The notes under the pieces: model-generated
Database searches by the model: none
What the model was told of the DNA's origin: nothing
The model's input: only the letters and a program-made list of their open reading frames with translations
Made by a program: the position numbers and the translations under genes
Shown here: one piece after another, positions 7,572 through 15,703 of the stretch
How the letters are laid out: each line of letters starts with the position of its first letter
Position numbering within the stretch: the stretch's first letter is position 1
Assembly (NCBI RefSeq): GCF_009769165.1
Contig: NZ_CP043476.1
Span: forward strand, 1,929,001-1,993,000
DNA from: Xanthomonas hyacinthi
Lineage (GTDB): Bacteria > Pseudomonadota > Gammaproteobacteria > Xanthomonadales > Xanthomonadaceae
Direction: 5' to 3'
Length of the DNA stretch: 64,000 bases

Positions 7572-8915
7572 TCACTTGCCGATGCAGAAGCTGGAGAAGA
7601 TCCGCCCCAGCAAGTCGTCGGCGCTGAGATGGCCGACGATCTCGCCGAGCGCGGCGTGCGCCAGGCGCAGTTCCTCGGCGGCCAGTTCCAGCCGCTCGTC
7701 GCCCAGTTCGGCGGCCGCGGCGGCGGCGTGCTCGGCGGCGCGCTGCAAGGCCTCCACGTGGCGCGCGCGCGCGGAGAATTCGCCGTCGCTGCCGTCGCCG
7801 GCGGCATGCCCGGCGATCGCGCGCAGCTGCGCGTGCAGCCGTTCGAGACCGCTGCCGGTGCTGGCGGAGACGTATACGCTGTCGGCCGTCGCTTCGGGCA
7901 CGGCCTCAAGCAGGTCGCTCTTGTTGTGGATCCACAGCCGTTGCGGCACCTCGGCGATGGCCTCGGCGATGGCGGCGCGACCGGCGTCCGCGGCGCGCGC
8001 GTCGAGCACGATCAACGCCAGGTCGGCGCGCTGCAGTTCCAGCCGCGCGCGGCGCATGCCTTCGCGCTCGATCGCGTCGCCGCCCTCGCGCAGGCCGGCG
8101 GTATCCACCAGGGTCAGTTCGACCCCATCCAGGCGCACGGTCTCGCGCAAGGTGTCGCGGGTGGTGCCGGCGATGTCGGTGACGATGGCGCGTTCGCTGC
8201 CGGCCAGCGCGTTGAGCAGCGAGCTCTTGCCGGCGTTCGGCGGCCCCACCAGCACCGCGTGCAGGCCGTCGCGCAGGCGCCGCCCGCGCTCGGCCTCCAG
8301 CAGCAGTTGCGCCAGGTCCGCACGCGCCTGCTCCAGGCCGGCGCGAACCTGGTCGCCGCCGAGCGTGTCCAGCGATTCGTCGGCGAAATCGATCGCCGCC
8401 TCGGTGTGCATGCGCAGCCGGACCAAATGCTCGGCCAGGGCTTCGACCCGGCGCGAGAACACGCCATCCAGCGACCTGCGTGCCGCGCGCGCCGCACGCA
8501 GGTCGCCGGCGGCGATCAGGTCGGCGATGGCCTCGGCCTGGGCCAGGTCCAGCTTGCGGTTGAGGAAGGCGCGCTCGCTGAACTCGCCCGGCCGCGCCGG
8601 CCGCGCGCCGAGCTCGCAGCAGCGCGCCACCAGTTGCCGCAGCAGCACCGGGCTGCCGTGCGCCTGCAGTTCCAGCACGTCCTCGCCGGTGAAGCTGCGC
8701 GGTGCCGGGAACCACAATGCGATGCCGTCGTCGAGGGTCTCTCCCTGCGCATCGCGGAAGCGTGCGTAGCGCGCCGTACGCGGGAGCAGCGCGCCCAGGC
8801 CGAGACCGGCGCCGATCGCCGCGGCCAGGCGCCCGGACACGCGCACCACGCCGACCCCGCCCGCCCCCGGAGCGGTGGCGATGGCGGCGATGGTGTCGGC
8901 GGTGGAGTGCGGCAT
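7572..8915 (-). CDS. mnmE: tRNA uridine-5-carboxymethylaminomethyl modification GTPase MnmE
   Basis: A 447-residue protein of normal length. The N-terminal tetrahydrofolate-binding domain starts [20 protein letters not shown]. The inserted G domain shows GPPNAGKSS (G1, near 225), GTTRDT (G2), DTAGLRE (G3) and NKSD (G4). The protein ends in CIGK, the C-x-G-K motif whose Cys is essential. MnmE works with MnmG to modify the wobble uridine of several tRNAs. The location downstream of yidC, in the rpmH-rnpA-yidC-mnmE order, is the usual one near oriC, here with the caspase/deacetylase lipoprotein gene inserted between yidC and mnmE. Confidence 0.97.
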
Positions 8916-8941: not shown

Positions 8942-11632
8942 CTACAACGTCTGCAGCTGCGCGCGCGCGTACGCCGCCGAGGCGCCGCTCGGCTGCAGTT
9001 CCAGGTAGGTCTGGAACGCGTGCCTGGCCTTGGCCGCATCGCCCATCTGCCGGTAGGCGTCGCCGAGGTTGATGTAGGCCACCGCGCGCGAGGGATCGAT
9101 CTTCAGCGTGTTCTCCAGCCAGCGCGCGGCCTGTGCGTACTTGCCCTGGCGGTAGTAGATGAAGCCGAGATTGTTGGCCGCCAGCGCGAAATCCGGACGC
9201 AGCTTCAGCGCCTCGGTGAATTGCGCCGCGGCCTCGTCGTAGCGCTTTTCCTTGTACAGCTGCAGGCCGCGGTCGTTGGCGCGCTGCGCACGCTGGCGAT
9301 CGGACATTGGCCCGGCCGCGACCGGCACCGCCAGCGGCCGCTCGCCGCCCTGCAGGTCCTTGACCAGCACGGTCGGCCTGGCCGCCGGTGCCGCGGCGTC
9401 GACGCGGTCGTTCATCGCGATCGCCGCCGAGGACAGCTGCTGGGTATCGGCGGTCAGGAATTCCTCGCCCTCCGGCACCTGCAGCACGAACTCGCCGCCC
9501 TGCGAGCCGGGCAGGCTGCCGAACGCCGGCGTCTGCGGCGAGATGCTCGACACCGCCGGGGCCACGTACGCGGCCAGTTCGGTGCCGGTGATCAGGCCGT
9601 CGCCATTGAGGTCACCCTTGCCCGACAGCGCCTGCAGCAATACCCAGGTGAACACCGAATGGCCGTTGGGGCCGCTGTCGGCGACCTGCTGGTCGGCACC
9701 GCCGGCGGTGAGCATCTGCCGCGCCACGCGCCGCGCGTTCTCGCGCAGGTAGGCGCCGGTGCCGCCGCCGCCGCGGGTCAGGCCCAGGCCGCTGTAGCAG
9801 GCGTCCATCACGAACAGCACGTGCTTGGCTTCCAGGCTCTCGGCGATGTCCTGGATCTCGGTCATCGGGATCGCATCGGTGGCGAACTGCGCCGGGTCCG
9901 AATCGGCCGGCACGATGTAGCCCAGGTCGCGCCCGGAGGCAAGCTTGCGGGTGGCCCCATGCCCGGCGAAGAACACGAACACGCGATCGTTCCTGCCCAC
10001 CCCGCCGTGCGCCAGGCGGTCGTGGAACGCGGCCAGGATGTTGTTGCGGGTGGCCTCCTGGTTCCTCAGCACGATCACCTGCGAGGACGGGAAGCCGAAG
10101 CTGCCGGTCAGCGTCTGCGCGATCGCCTGCGCATCGTTGGCCGCGTACTGCAGCCTGGGCCAACGCGCGTAGTCGTCGATGCCGATCACGACCGCCCACG
10201 AATTGTCGTAGCCGCTGGTCACCGCCGGCGCGGCCGCGTTGGCCGCCGCGCGCGCCACGCTGAAGTCGCGCCCGTTCCAGGCGGCGAACTGGTAGCCGTC
10301 GGCGCTGAGCCGGTCCAGGATCTGCGGCAGCGCCTTGACCGTGCGTGCGTGGATGTCGTGGAACAGCAGGATGCCGCGCTGCTCGCGGCCGACCTGCTCG
10401 AGCACGCGCTGCACGATCGATTCCGGCACCGGGTCCGCCCAGTCCAGCGAGTCCACGTTCCACATCACCGACTTCAACCCGGCCTCGCCGAGGATCTGCA
10501 TGCCCTCGGCGTTGCGCGCGCCGTACGGGAAGCGGAACAGCGGCGCGCGCTTGGCATCGACCGCGCGCAGCATGCGGTCGGTGTCCAGGATCTGGCTGCG
10601 CAGCGCGGCGCCGGTTTCCTTGGACAGCTGCGCATGGGTCAGGCTGTGGTTGCCGACCGTGTAGCCCTGCTCCATCAGTTCGCGGCTGACGCTGGCAAGC
10701 GGCGCCAGTTCGACCTTGCCGTCGGCATCGAGCTTGCCCAGGTTGCGTCCGACCTCGAAGAACGTGGCCGGCACGTCGTAGCGCTTGAGGATGGCGACGA
10801 TCTCGTCGGTGTACTCGCGGTGCGGGCCGTCGTCGAAGCTCAGCACCACCGTCTTCGGCGGCAGGTCGCGGCCGAACACCTCGCGATCGCTGTCCTGCAT
10901 CGACATCGGATACGGGGTGATCACCCCGTAGTCGCGCAGGATCCGCTCGCGCGTGTACAGCGTGCCCAGGTGGGCGAGGTAGTCCTCCCACTTCTCGCGC
11001 TTCTGCACGATCGCGCGGGTGCGGTCGAAGCGGCTGAAGATCGCGGTGATCTCGCGGTTGTAGCTGCGCTCGATCTCGTCCAGCGCCTCCAGGTCCTCGC
11101 CGATGCGCTGGTGCAGCTTGATCGCCGGCAGCGAGGAATCCTTGCCGATGCGCGCCTGCCAGTCGGCCAGGATCTCGCGGAACGCCAGGCGGTCGGCGTC
11201 GTACAGGTCCGGCGCCGATTCGACGTAGTCCAGCAGCGCGCCGACCGCGGCGAAGCGCTGCGCGTCCGGCTGCGCCAGCAGCGCATCGAATTGCTTGGCC
11301 AACGCGTCGCGCCGCTCCAGTCCCTCGTGGAACAGCTGCTGGCCGACGCCGCTGGAAGTCTGCCGCGCGGCCGGCGACTGCTTGGCCTCGTCGGCCAGCA
11401 GCACGATGATCTTGCGCTGCGCCGCCAGCTGTTCCTGTAGTTGCGCCTGGATCGCCGTGGCCTGCGCCTGCAGGGCGGGCGGGCCCGGCATCGGTGCGTT
11501 GTCCGGCGCGTGCGCGGCCGGCGCAGCAGCGGTGGCCGTGGACGATGGCGTGCGCTGACAGCCGGCCAGCGCAAGCGCGATCAGGCACGAGGCGGCGACG
11601 GAGACCAGGGAGGCGGAACGGCGGTCGAGCAT
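8942..11632 (-). CDS. Lipoprotein with NodB polysaccharide deacetylase, caspase-like peptidase and TPR domains
   Basis: An 896-residue protein starting at the ATG at 11630-11632. The signal ends in a lipobox, LALAGC, with Cys25. Residues 40-250 are mostly charged alpha-helix. A NodB domain spans about 260-470 with all metal and catalytic motifs: [25 protein letters not shown] and LLFHDIH. A caspase/C14 domain spans about 478-720: [10 protein letters not shown], the catalytic His in FAGHGATRK (near 557) and Cys in DACYSGLG (near 611), followed by a Ser/Gly linker. Two to three TPRs occupy about 785-885. The lipobox predicts an envelope lipoprotein. The joined activities suggest a cell-wall or polysaccharide enzyme controlled by proteolysis, but that is inference. 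Confidence 0.88.
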
Positions 11633-11691
11633 GGCCCGGGACTCACAAGGACAGTGGCAGGACACACGACGGCGCATCGCCGCCGCATACG

Positions 11692-11717
11692 CAACGCCCG
11701 CCTTGCGGCGGGCGTTG
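11692..11717 (-). terminator. GC-rich hairpin just downstream of yidC
   Basis: An 11-bp perfect stem (CAACGCCCGCC / GGCGGGCGTTG) with a TTGC loop begins 6 bases after the yidC stop. It lacks a proper U-tract in the minus direction, so it may slow or protect the transcript rather than terminate it efficiently. Confidence 0.45.
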
Positions 11718-11723
11718 TCGGGT

Positions 11724-13469
11724 TTATTTCTTGACCTTGGCCGGCGCCTTGGCGCCGCCCACGGCCGCCGCCGTGGCCGGCTCGCCGTGGCGCTTGGTCA
11801 TCCACCACTGCTGCAGCAGGCCCAGCGAACCGTTGGTGACCCAGTACAGCACCAGGCCCGACGGCACGAAGGCCATCATCACGCCGAACACCAGCGGCAT
11901 GAACTGCATCATCCGCGCCTGCATCGGGTCCATGCCCGGCGACGGCGTCAGCTTCTGCGTCAGCCACATCACCGCCACGTTGATCACCGGCAGGATGAAG
12001 TACGGATCGCGCGCGGTCAGGTCCTGGATCCAGGCGAACCACGGCGCCTGGCGCAGTTCCACCGATTCCACCAGCACCCAGTACAGCGCGAAGAAGATCG
12101 GCATCTGCACCAGCACCGGCAGGCAGCCGCCCATCGGGTTGATCTTCTCCTTCTTGTACAGCTCCATCATCGCGGTCTGGAACTTCTGCTTGTCGTCGCC
12201 GTAGCGTTCCTTGAGCTGCGCGATGCGCGGCTGGAACTTGCGCATCTTGGCCATGCTCTTGTACTGCGCGGCCGACAGCGGATACAGCACCAGCTTCAGC
12301 AGCACCACCAGGCCGACGATCGACCAGCCCCAGTTGCCGAGCAGGGTGTGCAGGTGGCTCAGCACCCAGAACAGGCCCTGGCCCAGGATCGCCATCAGCG
12401 AGAAGCGGCTGTAGTCGACCACGCGGTCCAGGCCGCGCACGTTTTCCTTGGCGATCTGGTTGACCAGCTTGGGGCCGACCCACAGCCGCGCTTCGCTGCT
12501 GGCACGCGCGCCCGGGGCCACGGTGAAGCCCGGGCCGCGCGCTTCGATCACATGCCGCGGGCCGTCGTTGGACAGCACGTACAGCGCGTCCTGGTCGGCC
12601 TGCGGGATCCAGCCGGTGAAGAAGTGGTGCTGCAGCAGTGCGATCCAGCCACCCTTGATGGTCTGGTTGACCGGGCCGTCTTCCAGGAAATCCTTGAACG
12701 CGCGGCGCTGGTAGCCGTCCTGCGCACTGAACCAGGTGGCGCCGTTGAAGCTGAAGGAATCCGGGTTGGTCATGCCGCGGCTGACGATGGTCGGCACCCG
12801 GCTCAGCTTGCGGAACACGTAGCCCTGCCACGGCTTGCTGCCCTGGTTGACGATCTCGTCCTTGATCTGCACCGCGTAGTGGCCGCGCTGCACGGTGTAG
12901 ACGCGGCGGATGCTGATCCCGTCCGGGCCGTTCCACACGAACGGCACCTGCAGCGCGTCCTGGCCCTTGGCCAGCACGTAGTCCTTGCCCGGCTGCTCCG
13001 GGCGGAAGCCGCCGGGACCCGGCGACGGCGCGTTGTGCTCGCCGACCCAGCCGCTGGTGGCGGTGTACGGATGCAGCGGGTCCTCGGTCAGCAACGCCAC
13101 CGGCGGGCTGCCGGGCTGCTTGGTCTGCGGGAACAGCAGCAGATCCGCATCGAACACGCTGCGCCCGTCCAGGGTCAGGCGCAGCACGTCGGTGGTGATG
13201 GTGACCCGCGGCGCGGCGGCGGCGGCGACCGGCGCGGCAGTCTCGCTGCTGGCGCCGGGTACGGCCGCAGCGCCGGATTGGGTGGCACGCGGCACGGCCG
13301 GAGCGCCGCTGGCGCCGGCGTCGGCGTCCTGCGCGGGCGGCACCGTGGTCGCGGCCGCAATGGCGGTCGCATCGGCCGCAGGCGCGGCGTGCTCCTTGTT
13401 CCACTCCATCCACAACAGGGCCGCGACCATCAGCCAGGCAAAGATCAGGAAAAGGCGGGTCTGGTTCAT
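11724..13469 (-). CDS. yidC: Membrane protein insertase YidC
   Basis: 581 residues starting [20 protein letters not shown], the N-terminal membrane anchor of Gram-negative YidC. A large periplasmic domain follows (about residues 50-360, rich in Ala/Pro at first), then the conserved insertase core with [15 protein letters not shown], the cytoplasmic coiled hairpin ([16 protein letters not shown]), [20 protein letters not shown] and a basic tail AKVKK. It inserts inner-membrane proteins alone or with SecYEG. The gene lies 18 bases after rnpA; no separate yidD frame fits in that gap, although many other genomes have yidD there. Confidence 0.97.
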
Positions 13470-14362: not shown

Positions 14363-15703
14363 ATGGATGCTTGGCCCCGTTGCCTGGAACGTCTGGAAGC
14401 TGAATTTCCAGCCGAGGACGTTCACACCTGGTTGAAACCGCTGCAAGCCGAACAGCGCCATGACAACAGCATGGTCCTGTACGCCCCGAACGCCTTCATC
14501 GTCGAACAGGTGCGCGAGCGCTACCTGGCGCGGATCCGCGAGCTGATGACCTATTTCGCCGGCAGCGGCGAAGTGGCCCTGCAGGTCGGCTCGCGTCCGC
14601 GCGCGCCGGAACCGGCGGCAGTGGCCGCCAGCGATGCCGCCGCCGCGCGCACGCCGCCGGCGCCGCTGCTGGAGCCGTTCGCCGGCAATCTCGACTCGCA
14701 CTACACCTTCGCCAACTTCGTCGAAGGCCGCAGCAACCAGCTCGGCCTGGCCGCGGCCACGCAGGCGGCGCAGAAGCCCGGCGACCGCGCGCACAACCCG
14801 CTGCTGCTGTACGGCAGCACCGGCCTGGGCAAGACCCACCTGATGTTCGCCGCCGGCAACGCGATGCGCGAGCAGAACCCCAACGCGCGGGTCATGTACC
14901 TGCGCTCGGAACAGTTCTTCAGCGCGATGATCCGCGCGTTGCAGGACAAGACCATGGACCAGTTCAAGCGCCAGTTCCAGCAGGTGGACGCGCTGCTGAT
15001 CGACGACATCCAGTTCTTCGCCGGCAAGGACCGCACCCAGGAAGAGTTCTTCCACACCTTCAACGCGCTGTTCGACGGCCGCCAGCAGATCATCCTGACC
15101 TGCGACCGCTACCCGCGCGAGGTCGAAGGCCTGGAGCCGCGGCTGAAGTCGCGCCTGGCCTGGGGCCTGTCGGTGGCGATCGACCCGCCCGACTTCGAGA
15201 CCCGTGCGGCGATCGTGCTGGCCAAGGCGCGCGAGCGCGGCGCCGACATCCCCGACGACGTGGCGTTCCTGATCGCCAAGAAGATGCGCTCCAACGTGCG
15301 CGACCTGGAAGGGGCGCTCAACACGCTGGCCGCCCGCGCCAACTTCACCGGCCGCGCAATCACCACCGAGTTCGCCCAGGAGACGCTGCGCGACCTGCTG
15401 CGCGCGCAGCAGCAGGCGATCGGCATCCCCAACATCCAGAAGACCGTGGCCGACTACTACGGCCTGCAGATCAAGGACCTGCTGTCCAAGCGCCGCACCC
15501 GCTCGCTGGCGCGGCCGCGGCAGGTGGCGATGGCGCTGACCAAGGAGCTGACCGAACACAGCCTGCCGGAGATCGGCGATGCGTTCGCCGGCCGCGACCA
15601 CACCACCGTGCTGCACGCCTGCCGCCAGATCAAGCACCTGATGGAGGCCGACGGCAAGCTGCGCGAGGACTGGGACAAGCTGATCCGCAAGTTGAGCGAG
15701 TAA
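14363..15703 (+). CDS. dnaA: Chromosomal replication initiator protein DnaA
   Basis: 446 residues, normal length. Domain I (about 1-80) starts [20 protein letters not shown]; a variable Ala/Pro linker follows. The AAA+ domain has GSTGLGKTH (Walker A, near 150) and LLIDDIQFF (Walker B). Domain IV ends with the DNA-recognition signature [14 protein letters not shown]. DnaA-ATP oligomerises on DnaA boxes and melts oriC. It is the first gene of dnaA-dnaN-recF-gyrB and its 3' flank carries the candidate origin. Confidence 0.98.

Follow-up and report, generated by a model that had tools for sequence, protein, structure and literature searches.

The Xanthomonas-type metacaspase was described by Asplund-Samuelsson et al. 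in 2012 as a 97-100 kDa protein in which a polysaccharide deacetylase, a metacaspase and tetratricopeptide repeats (TPRs) are joined (PMC3501461). Published members come from Xanthomonas, Stenotrophomonas, Xylella and two Acidobacteria, with the Cys-His dyad intact in 17/17 sequences, and the gene adjoins trmE with yidC/rnpA upstream (PMC3501461). For the product of a homologue from X. campestris pv. glycines (GI 88792532), cross-reaction with antibodies to caspase and PARP was reported, caspase-deficient mutants reportedly escaped cell death, and a link to Xanthomonas programmed cell death was proposed; the same paper states that metacaspases cut after Arg/Lys, that their N-terminal helices may act as signal peptides and that they could, in general, also work extracellularly (PMC3501461). 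DEVD-cleaving activity has been reported in dying Xanthomonas cells, where caspase-3-like activity has been on record since 2002 (PMC4006831 and work cited there). Here we analyze a gene of this type in a 64,000-nucleotide stretch of the Xanthomonas hyacinthi genome (assembly GCF_009769165.1, contig NZ_CP043476.1, positions 1,929,001 to 1,993,000; hereafter the window), which occupies 8942..11632 on the minus strand and encodes a protein of 896 residues (P0001).

The architecture of the protein is that of the Xanthomonas-type metacaspase, and on the sequence characters of domain order, dyad and trmE/yidC neighborhood the gene is a member of this published family (PMC3501461). Since architecture and neighborhood were published in 2012, the fusion, its surroundings and the cell-death claim were already in print, and the finding of the initial annotation of the window is a rediscovery. 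The accessible parts of that paper do not discuss a lipoprotein signal of this type, the S1 pocket, the EF-hand-like loop, the helical domain or the betaproteobacterial spread; relative to them, we add an anchor scan, the S1-pocket residues, the EF-hand-like loop, a plug-like domain, caspase-free relatives and remnants of gene loss. We recognized no biochemical study of the fused protein in the open literature, Gautam & Sharma 2002 and Raju et al. 2007 being known to us through PMC3501461 and PMC4006831. What makes the protein of interest is that the sole caspase-family match of the genome belongs to a protein predicted to lie outside the cytoplasm and to cut after Arg/Lys, neither of which would fit an executioner that resides in the cytosol and cleaves DEVD.

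Domain architecture and conservation

The domain anatomy is near certain. The gene is a single frame read from an ATG at 11632 to a stop ending at 8942, with no stop inside; a longer alternative of 911 residues would begin at an ATG at 11677, and the signal and lipobox begin at 11632. By sequence pattern, residues 1-25 (11558..11632, minus strand, as for all parts of the gene) are a signal peptide ending in the lipobox LAGC (22-25), with Cys25 as the lipid-bearing residue and Gln at +2. A domain of about 190 residues then separates the lipobox from the deacetylase; it was omitted from the initial annotation, is helical in the structure model (residues 52-250, 10883..11479), has no Pfam match and is a candidate cap or plug of the domain that follows. 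The NodB/CE4 deacetylase domain (residues 251-460, 10253..10882), defined by Pfam, alignment and model, has a complete set of five motifs, SFDDG (265-269), HSLTH (329-333), RFPYG (367-371), DSLDW (394-398) and LLFHD (422-426). Alignment and model place a variable linker at residues 461-475 (10208..10252), with a predicted local distance difference test score (pLDDT) below 50 at 461-473. Pfam and alignment delimit the caspase-like (C14) domain at residues 476-720 (9473..10207), with His558 in FAGHG (555-559), Cys612 in DACYSG (610-615) and the S1-pocket residues Asp500 and Asp610; the alignment also reveals an EF-hand-like loop within it, at 674-685 (9578..9613). A second variable linker, again from alignment and model, covers residues 721-775 (9308..9472; pLDDT <50), and the chain ends in TPR repeats recognized by Pfam and model (residues 777-896, 8945..9304). 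The Pfam matches to PF01522 at 256-388 (E 1.9e-27) and PF00656 at 479-673 (E 3.2e-21) are both above cut-off, as are most, not all, of the several TPR models that match at about 787-894. These data bear out the single lipoprotein with NodB domain, caspase dyad and TPRs claimed in the initial annotation, which left the strand unmentioned; frame, Pfam matches and coordinates agree, and every motif it listed, from the lipobox Cys to DACYSG, can be located in the protein. The genome has 1 caspase-domain match and 6 NodB matches, the fused gene being counted in both, and an anti-phage role was considered and rejected, the matches to defense models being limited to one for caspases in general and a weak one for TPRs.

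Both active sites are conserved. In an alignment of 44 relatives, picked for diversity among intact copies, the NodB key residues D267, D268, H329, H333, R367, P369, D394, D397 and H425 are present in 44/44 rows, as are the caspase pair H558 and C612 and the pocket pair D500 and D610; 12 more fused loci agree at the key residues wherever their sequence extends. The catalytic Cys is the sole Cys found in every row. Mean column majority is highest in the caspase part (0.825), followed by the TPR (0.794), NodB (0.767) and helical (0.683) regions. The ratio of nonsynonymous to synonymous substitution (omega) in five close pairs is 0-0.16 for NodB, 0.085-0.17 for the caspase part and 0.08-0.12 for the TPRs, against 0.42-0.75 for residues 1-65, and is less clear in three more distant pairs. 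Whole-gene omega is 0.165-0.254 in seven of the pairs; in the remaining one, that of locus L046, it is 0.487 and high throughout, with a low apparent synonymous divergence. The intact active sites that the initial annotation ascribed to an envelope-anchored fusion thus stand, the anchor being a prediction from the lipobox pattern, and its stated worry that catalytic residues might not be conserved in homologues proved groundless. The length of the linker between caspase and TPR parts differs among close relatives. In the copies of five genomes (G003, G010, G013, G018 and G019; L012-L016) the match splits in two around residues 742-754 within one open frame.

Predicted export and specificity of the two enzymes

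We scanned the N-termini of 109 loci, of which 6 broken or truncated ones were excluded (L051, L054, L090, L101, L107 and L108), leaving 103 intact; as the loci came from two collections, some genomes are counted twice. The scan was a simple pattern search for a hydrophobic stretch and for [LVIMFA][ASTVILGM][GASN]C, a somewhat looser form of the textbook lipobox. All 103/103 intact loci begin with either a Cys of lipobox type or a stretch resembling an anchor. Within Xanthomonadaceae a Cys closes the hydrophobic stretch in all 57 intact loci, with 49 fitting the lipobox pattern and 8 not; among the 46 loci of other groups, the pattern is matched in 6, while the hydrophobic stretch lacks Cys in 37 and contains one in 3. 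The mode of anchoring seems to differ between clades while the predicted exported topology stays constant. Since an anchor-type N-terminus occurs in every intact locus, both the NodB and the caspase enzyme should, on sequence grounds, lie outside the cytoplasm. The window protein itself is a bacterial lipoprotein by pattern alone (signal peptide, lipobox and Cys). Under the E. coli sorting rule, Gln after Cys25 would direct it to the outer membrane; the Cys25-lipidated protein is probably tethered there, with the remainder periplasmic or outside.

The NodB domain is assigned to NodB/CE4 by its above-threshold Pfam score and its five motifs, which include what we take from the CE4 literature to be the metal ligands and catalytic base. 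It is predicted to be a metal-dependent de-N-acetylase, most likely with peptidoglycan N-acetylglucosamine (GlcNAc) as its substrate. By sequence the preceding helical domain has zero Pfam matches and a best PDB match of E 0.098. The top Foldseek match of both predicted models is Bdellovibrio Bd3279 (PDB 5jp6), which, among the VIA rows listed, alone has a range reaching deep into the helical domain, although the alignment extends into this region loosely, with a root-mean-square deviation of 4.5 (VIA) or 10.1 (Foldseek). Bd3279 is a peptidoglycan GlcNAc deacetylase in which a helical 'plug' covers the active site (PMC4876506), and the models suggest that the helical domain of the window protein may likewise cap the NodB active site. 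The deacetylases of two papers on diffusible signal factor quorum sensing (hmsF, XAC0299 and Smal_2717; PMC6337780, PMC3715506) were considered and, judged by name or locus number, appear to be other genes.

The caspase part has the characters of orthocaspases and metacaspases, namely the C14 domain, the His/Cys dyad and two acidic S1 residues. Its profile matches yeast and plant metacaspases, and metacaspase 9 appears among the Foldseek matches from rank 39. The profile alignment pairs D500 with the Asp that is conserved in the 'NDA' segment of metacaspases, and DACYSG with DSCHSG. In TbMC2 the basic P1 side chain is held by Asp95 and Asp211 (PMC6426788); the transfer from yeast to TbMC2 numbering is a step of our own. 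The basic S1 pocket of caspase-3, Gln161 and Arg164, which gives Asp at P1 (PMC5756287), was looked for in the 44 rows and is replaced in all of them by Asp500 and Asp610. Because both acidic pocket residues are invariant, the caspase part is predicted to cleave after Arg/Lys and not after Asp as in DEVD assays. The non-animal C14 members characterized so far prefer Arg/Lys at P1, cleavage at negative residues being confined to caspases (PMC5756287); this preference and the acidic pocket together predict that the protein is not the DEVD-cleaving enzyme of dying Xanthomonas. Candidate autocleavage sites remain in the invariant Arg620, Arg635 and Arg638 of the p20/p10 loop. The NodB-caspase linker (461-473), of low model confidence, contains basic residues, which are individually variable in the alignment, and no conserved autocleavage residue was found there.

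An EF-hand loop follows the consensus D-x-N/D-x-D-G-x-I-x-x-x-E within a helix-loop-helix. In the EF-hand-like loop of the caspase part D674, N676, D678 and E685 are present in 44/44 rows, and the loop is absent in the 3/3 caspase-only proteins of the order examined (L017, L018 and L020). Pfam EF-hand models have zero matches on the window protein, where pLDDT at the loop is about 62-65; the use of Ca2+ by the caspase part is thus a prediction.

Distribution, neighborhood and loss of the gene

The closest database relatives are from Xanthomonas (e.g., X. bundabergensis, 94%; X. sacchari, 89%), and 16/20 same-genus genomes, that of the window counted, have a full-length relative. Across the family, matches at E <= 1e-60 occur in 72/395 genomes, from 8/54 genera; at least 5 of the 72 copies are fragmented or interrupted (G132, G227, G274, G335 and G383). 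A scan of named genomes yielded at least 79 loci (from the best 80 of 96 matches), the taxa among the matches listed including Xanthomonas, Stenotrophomonas, Pseudoxanthomonas, Massilia, Duganella, Polaromonas, Thiobacillus, Gallionella, Undibacterium, Acidobacteriota and others. The fusion is thus found in Xanthomonadaceae, betaproteobacteria and Acidobacteriota. Matches occur in 10/399 genomes of a sample of the order of Duganella and in 11/297 of a sample of the phylum Acidobacteriota, each count including the genome on which the sample was centered. Two of the copies from the former sample are incomplete, one lying in two pieces on separate contigs (G1056) and the other being the C-terminal half alone at a contig start (G889).

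The deacetylase half also stands alone. Proteins of 435-470 residues with the helical domain and NodB, and without the caspase, occur in Geothrix, Massilia agilis and others, and of the 11 Acidobacteriota genomes 4 have the fusion and 8 the lone deacetylase half, with 1 in both groups. The existence of these stand-alone halves indicates, at the level of sequence, that the fusion unites two separable modules. No relative of the caspase part was found near the caspase-free deacetylase in 6 Acidobacteriota loci of 12-14 kb. Natural split genes, with deacetylase and caspase as neighbors, were sought among five candidate database pairs, whose contigs match in length, and rejected, the ends resembling frameshifts. 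One acidobacterial genome (G520) carries both a fused form and a caspase-free helical and NodB form (L150 and L159), the match to the latter crossing one stop. The tree unites all Xanthomonadaceae rows in a single group (100/100), which also includes three rows from metagenome-assembled genomes labeled Betaproteobacteria or Azonexus (L049, L050 and L057). These three and a further such locus with the same kind of label (L055) have a Xanthomonadaceae-type copy with lipobox, and yidC and mnmE are not in the available DNA; transfer or mis-binning would explain them. Relatives labeled Rhizopus arrhizus, Bacillus subtilis or as part of a eukaryote set (P0313, P0322, P0064 and P0150) probably reflect assembly contamination or mislabeling.

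In the window the gene lies between two genes that, from open reading frames and locus comparison, we take to be yidC (upstream, 11724..13469, minus strand, 91-base spacer) and mnmE (trmE; downstream, 7572..8915, minus strand, 26 bases past the stop), which agrees with the placement in the initial annotation. Its further statement that the gene interrupts a row of essential genes that is normal in other respects holds locally and is not peculiar to this genome: both flanks are common to 60/62 Xanthomonadaceae loci, and the remaining 2 have mnmE on one side and the contig end on the side of yidC. Outside Xanthomonadaceae neither yidC nor mnmE is found near the gene within the available flanking DNA (0/47 loci), and there is no conserved operon partner, the largest neighbor cluster covering 6/47 loci and being partly overlapping-frame noise. 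No promoter of its own was found in a scan for sigma-70-like sites, the one promoter type covered. A hairpin at 11691-11718, considered as the yidC terminator, scores on the plus strand only and is therefore not a yidC terminator of that type. A plus-strand frame (14363-15703), which starts some 2.7 kb past the gene's 5' end, presumably encodes DnaA, which it resembles; the gene would then lie close to the presumed replication origin, in what we take to be the row rnpA-yidC-mnmE.

The gene is absent from 4/20 same-genus genomes (G001, G002, G016 and G017). G017 retains a remnant of its 3' end beside its upstream region, and G001 (L122) has remnants of both ends and beside them, between yidC and mnmE, an open frame at about 250-1500 that we take, by resemblance, for an IS5-type transposase; no clear remnant was seen in G002 or G016. 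The remnants establish that the gene was lost at least in G017 and G001, and hence that it is dispensable. It has decayed repeatedly within Xanthomonas. Interrupted or shortened copies (L051, L090, L101 and L107) occur in records of X. phaseoli, X. axonopodis, X. arboricola pv. juglandis and X. nasturtii.

Possible functions and comparison with known systems

We favor a reading in which a tethered, probably capped peptidoglycan deacetylase is combined with a basic-specific caspase and a TPR platform, with the protease acting to switch or free the deacetylase; for the whole chain we estimate a probability of about 0.4. Lipidated Cys25 would tether the protein to the envelope, and the helical domain would adjoin a NodB/CE4 de-N-acetylase working on peptidoglycan GlcNAc. 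A flexible linker would lead to a caspase-fold protease cutting after Arg/Lys, perhaps in a Ca2+-dependent manner, and the TPR platform joined to the caspase part would dock a partner. The activated protease would then cut its own chain or an envelope partner, so that the deacetylase is switched or freed, a regulatory link that we infer, as the initial annotation did when it proposed that proteolysis regulates or releases the deacetylase. Should the protease indeed control the deacetylase, wall modification would here be gated by proteolysis, which is unusual for bacteria. A more elaborate scheme, which we think unlikely, would have the NodB enzyme, on its envelope tether, plugged by the helical domain at rest until a Ca2+ or TPR-partner signal leads the Arg/Lys caspase to cut the linkers, unplugging or releasing a deacetylase that marks the cell's own or a neighbor's peptidoglycan for breakdown; in that case envelope autolysis or remodeling would underlie the reported 'caspase-dependent death' of Xanthomonas, and the DEVD activity would come from another enzyme.

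The main rival is that two independent enzymes share one tether, NodB editing the wall and the caspase processing other envelope proteins, so that the fusion merely co-localizes them. The lone deacetylase halves of Geothrix and Massilia agilis, the variable, low-confidence linkers reminiscent of beads on a string and the similar constraint on NodB and caspase domains all speak for this; the fused order, however, persists all the way from Acidobacteriota to Xanthomonadaceae, suggesting that co-localization by chance is not the whole story, and we regard this rival as a real possibility, if a somewhat doubtful one. The caspase domain could instead be a sensor or scaffold together with the TPRs, with proteolysis minor and NodB as the output. 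A TPR platform beside the caspase part and the EF-hand-like loop do suggest ligand binding, but a scaffold could drop the dyad, as pseudo-orthocaspases did (PMC6426788), and the invariance of both dyad and S1 pocket in 44/44 rows makes this quite unlikely. The published view, in which the protein executes programmed cell death in Xanthomonas as a caspase-3-like enzyme with intracellular targets and the deacetylase part has a PARP-like activity, draws on the antibody cross-reaction and death-free caspase-deficient mutants (PMC3501461) and on DEVD cleavage in dying cells (PMC4006831). We disfavor it as improbable: the anchor-type N-terminus of 103/103 intact loci points to a place outside the cytoplasm, the 44/44 acidic S1 pocket points to Arg/Lys rather than DEVD, in keeping with the basic P1 preference of characterized non-metazoan C14 members (PMC5756287), several Xanthomonas lineages lack the gene or have a broken copy, and the gene behind the DEVD activity is unnamed in the accessible parts of PMC4006831. 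The chance that separate genes were joined artificially, during assembly or annotation, is negligible; a joining sequencing error, the other danger named in the initial annotation, is refuted by an uninterrupted fusion that recurs across many independent genomes.

Among known deacetylases, PgdA-type peptidoglycan enzymes (2c1g) and Bc1960 (4l1g) are not known to carry an attached protease, unlike the window protein. Bd3279 is closer, being like it an exported NodB enzyme with an all-helical N-terminal domain; that domain, however, is shorter (residues 24-126), bears a disulfide and is described as unique to Bdellovibrio and close relatives (PMC4876506). Bd3279 also has neither caspase nor TPRs, and its sequence match to the window protein is confined to NodB. 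On the protease side, orthocaspases (e.g., MaOC1 of Microcystis) and metacaspases have the C14 fold, the His/Cys dyad and the acidic S1 pocket in common with the window protein, which differs from them in its predicted export, its fusion to NodB and TPRs, and the EF-hand-like loop in the C-terminal portion of its caspase part.
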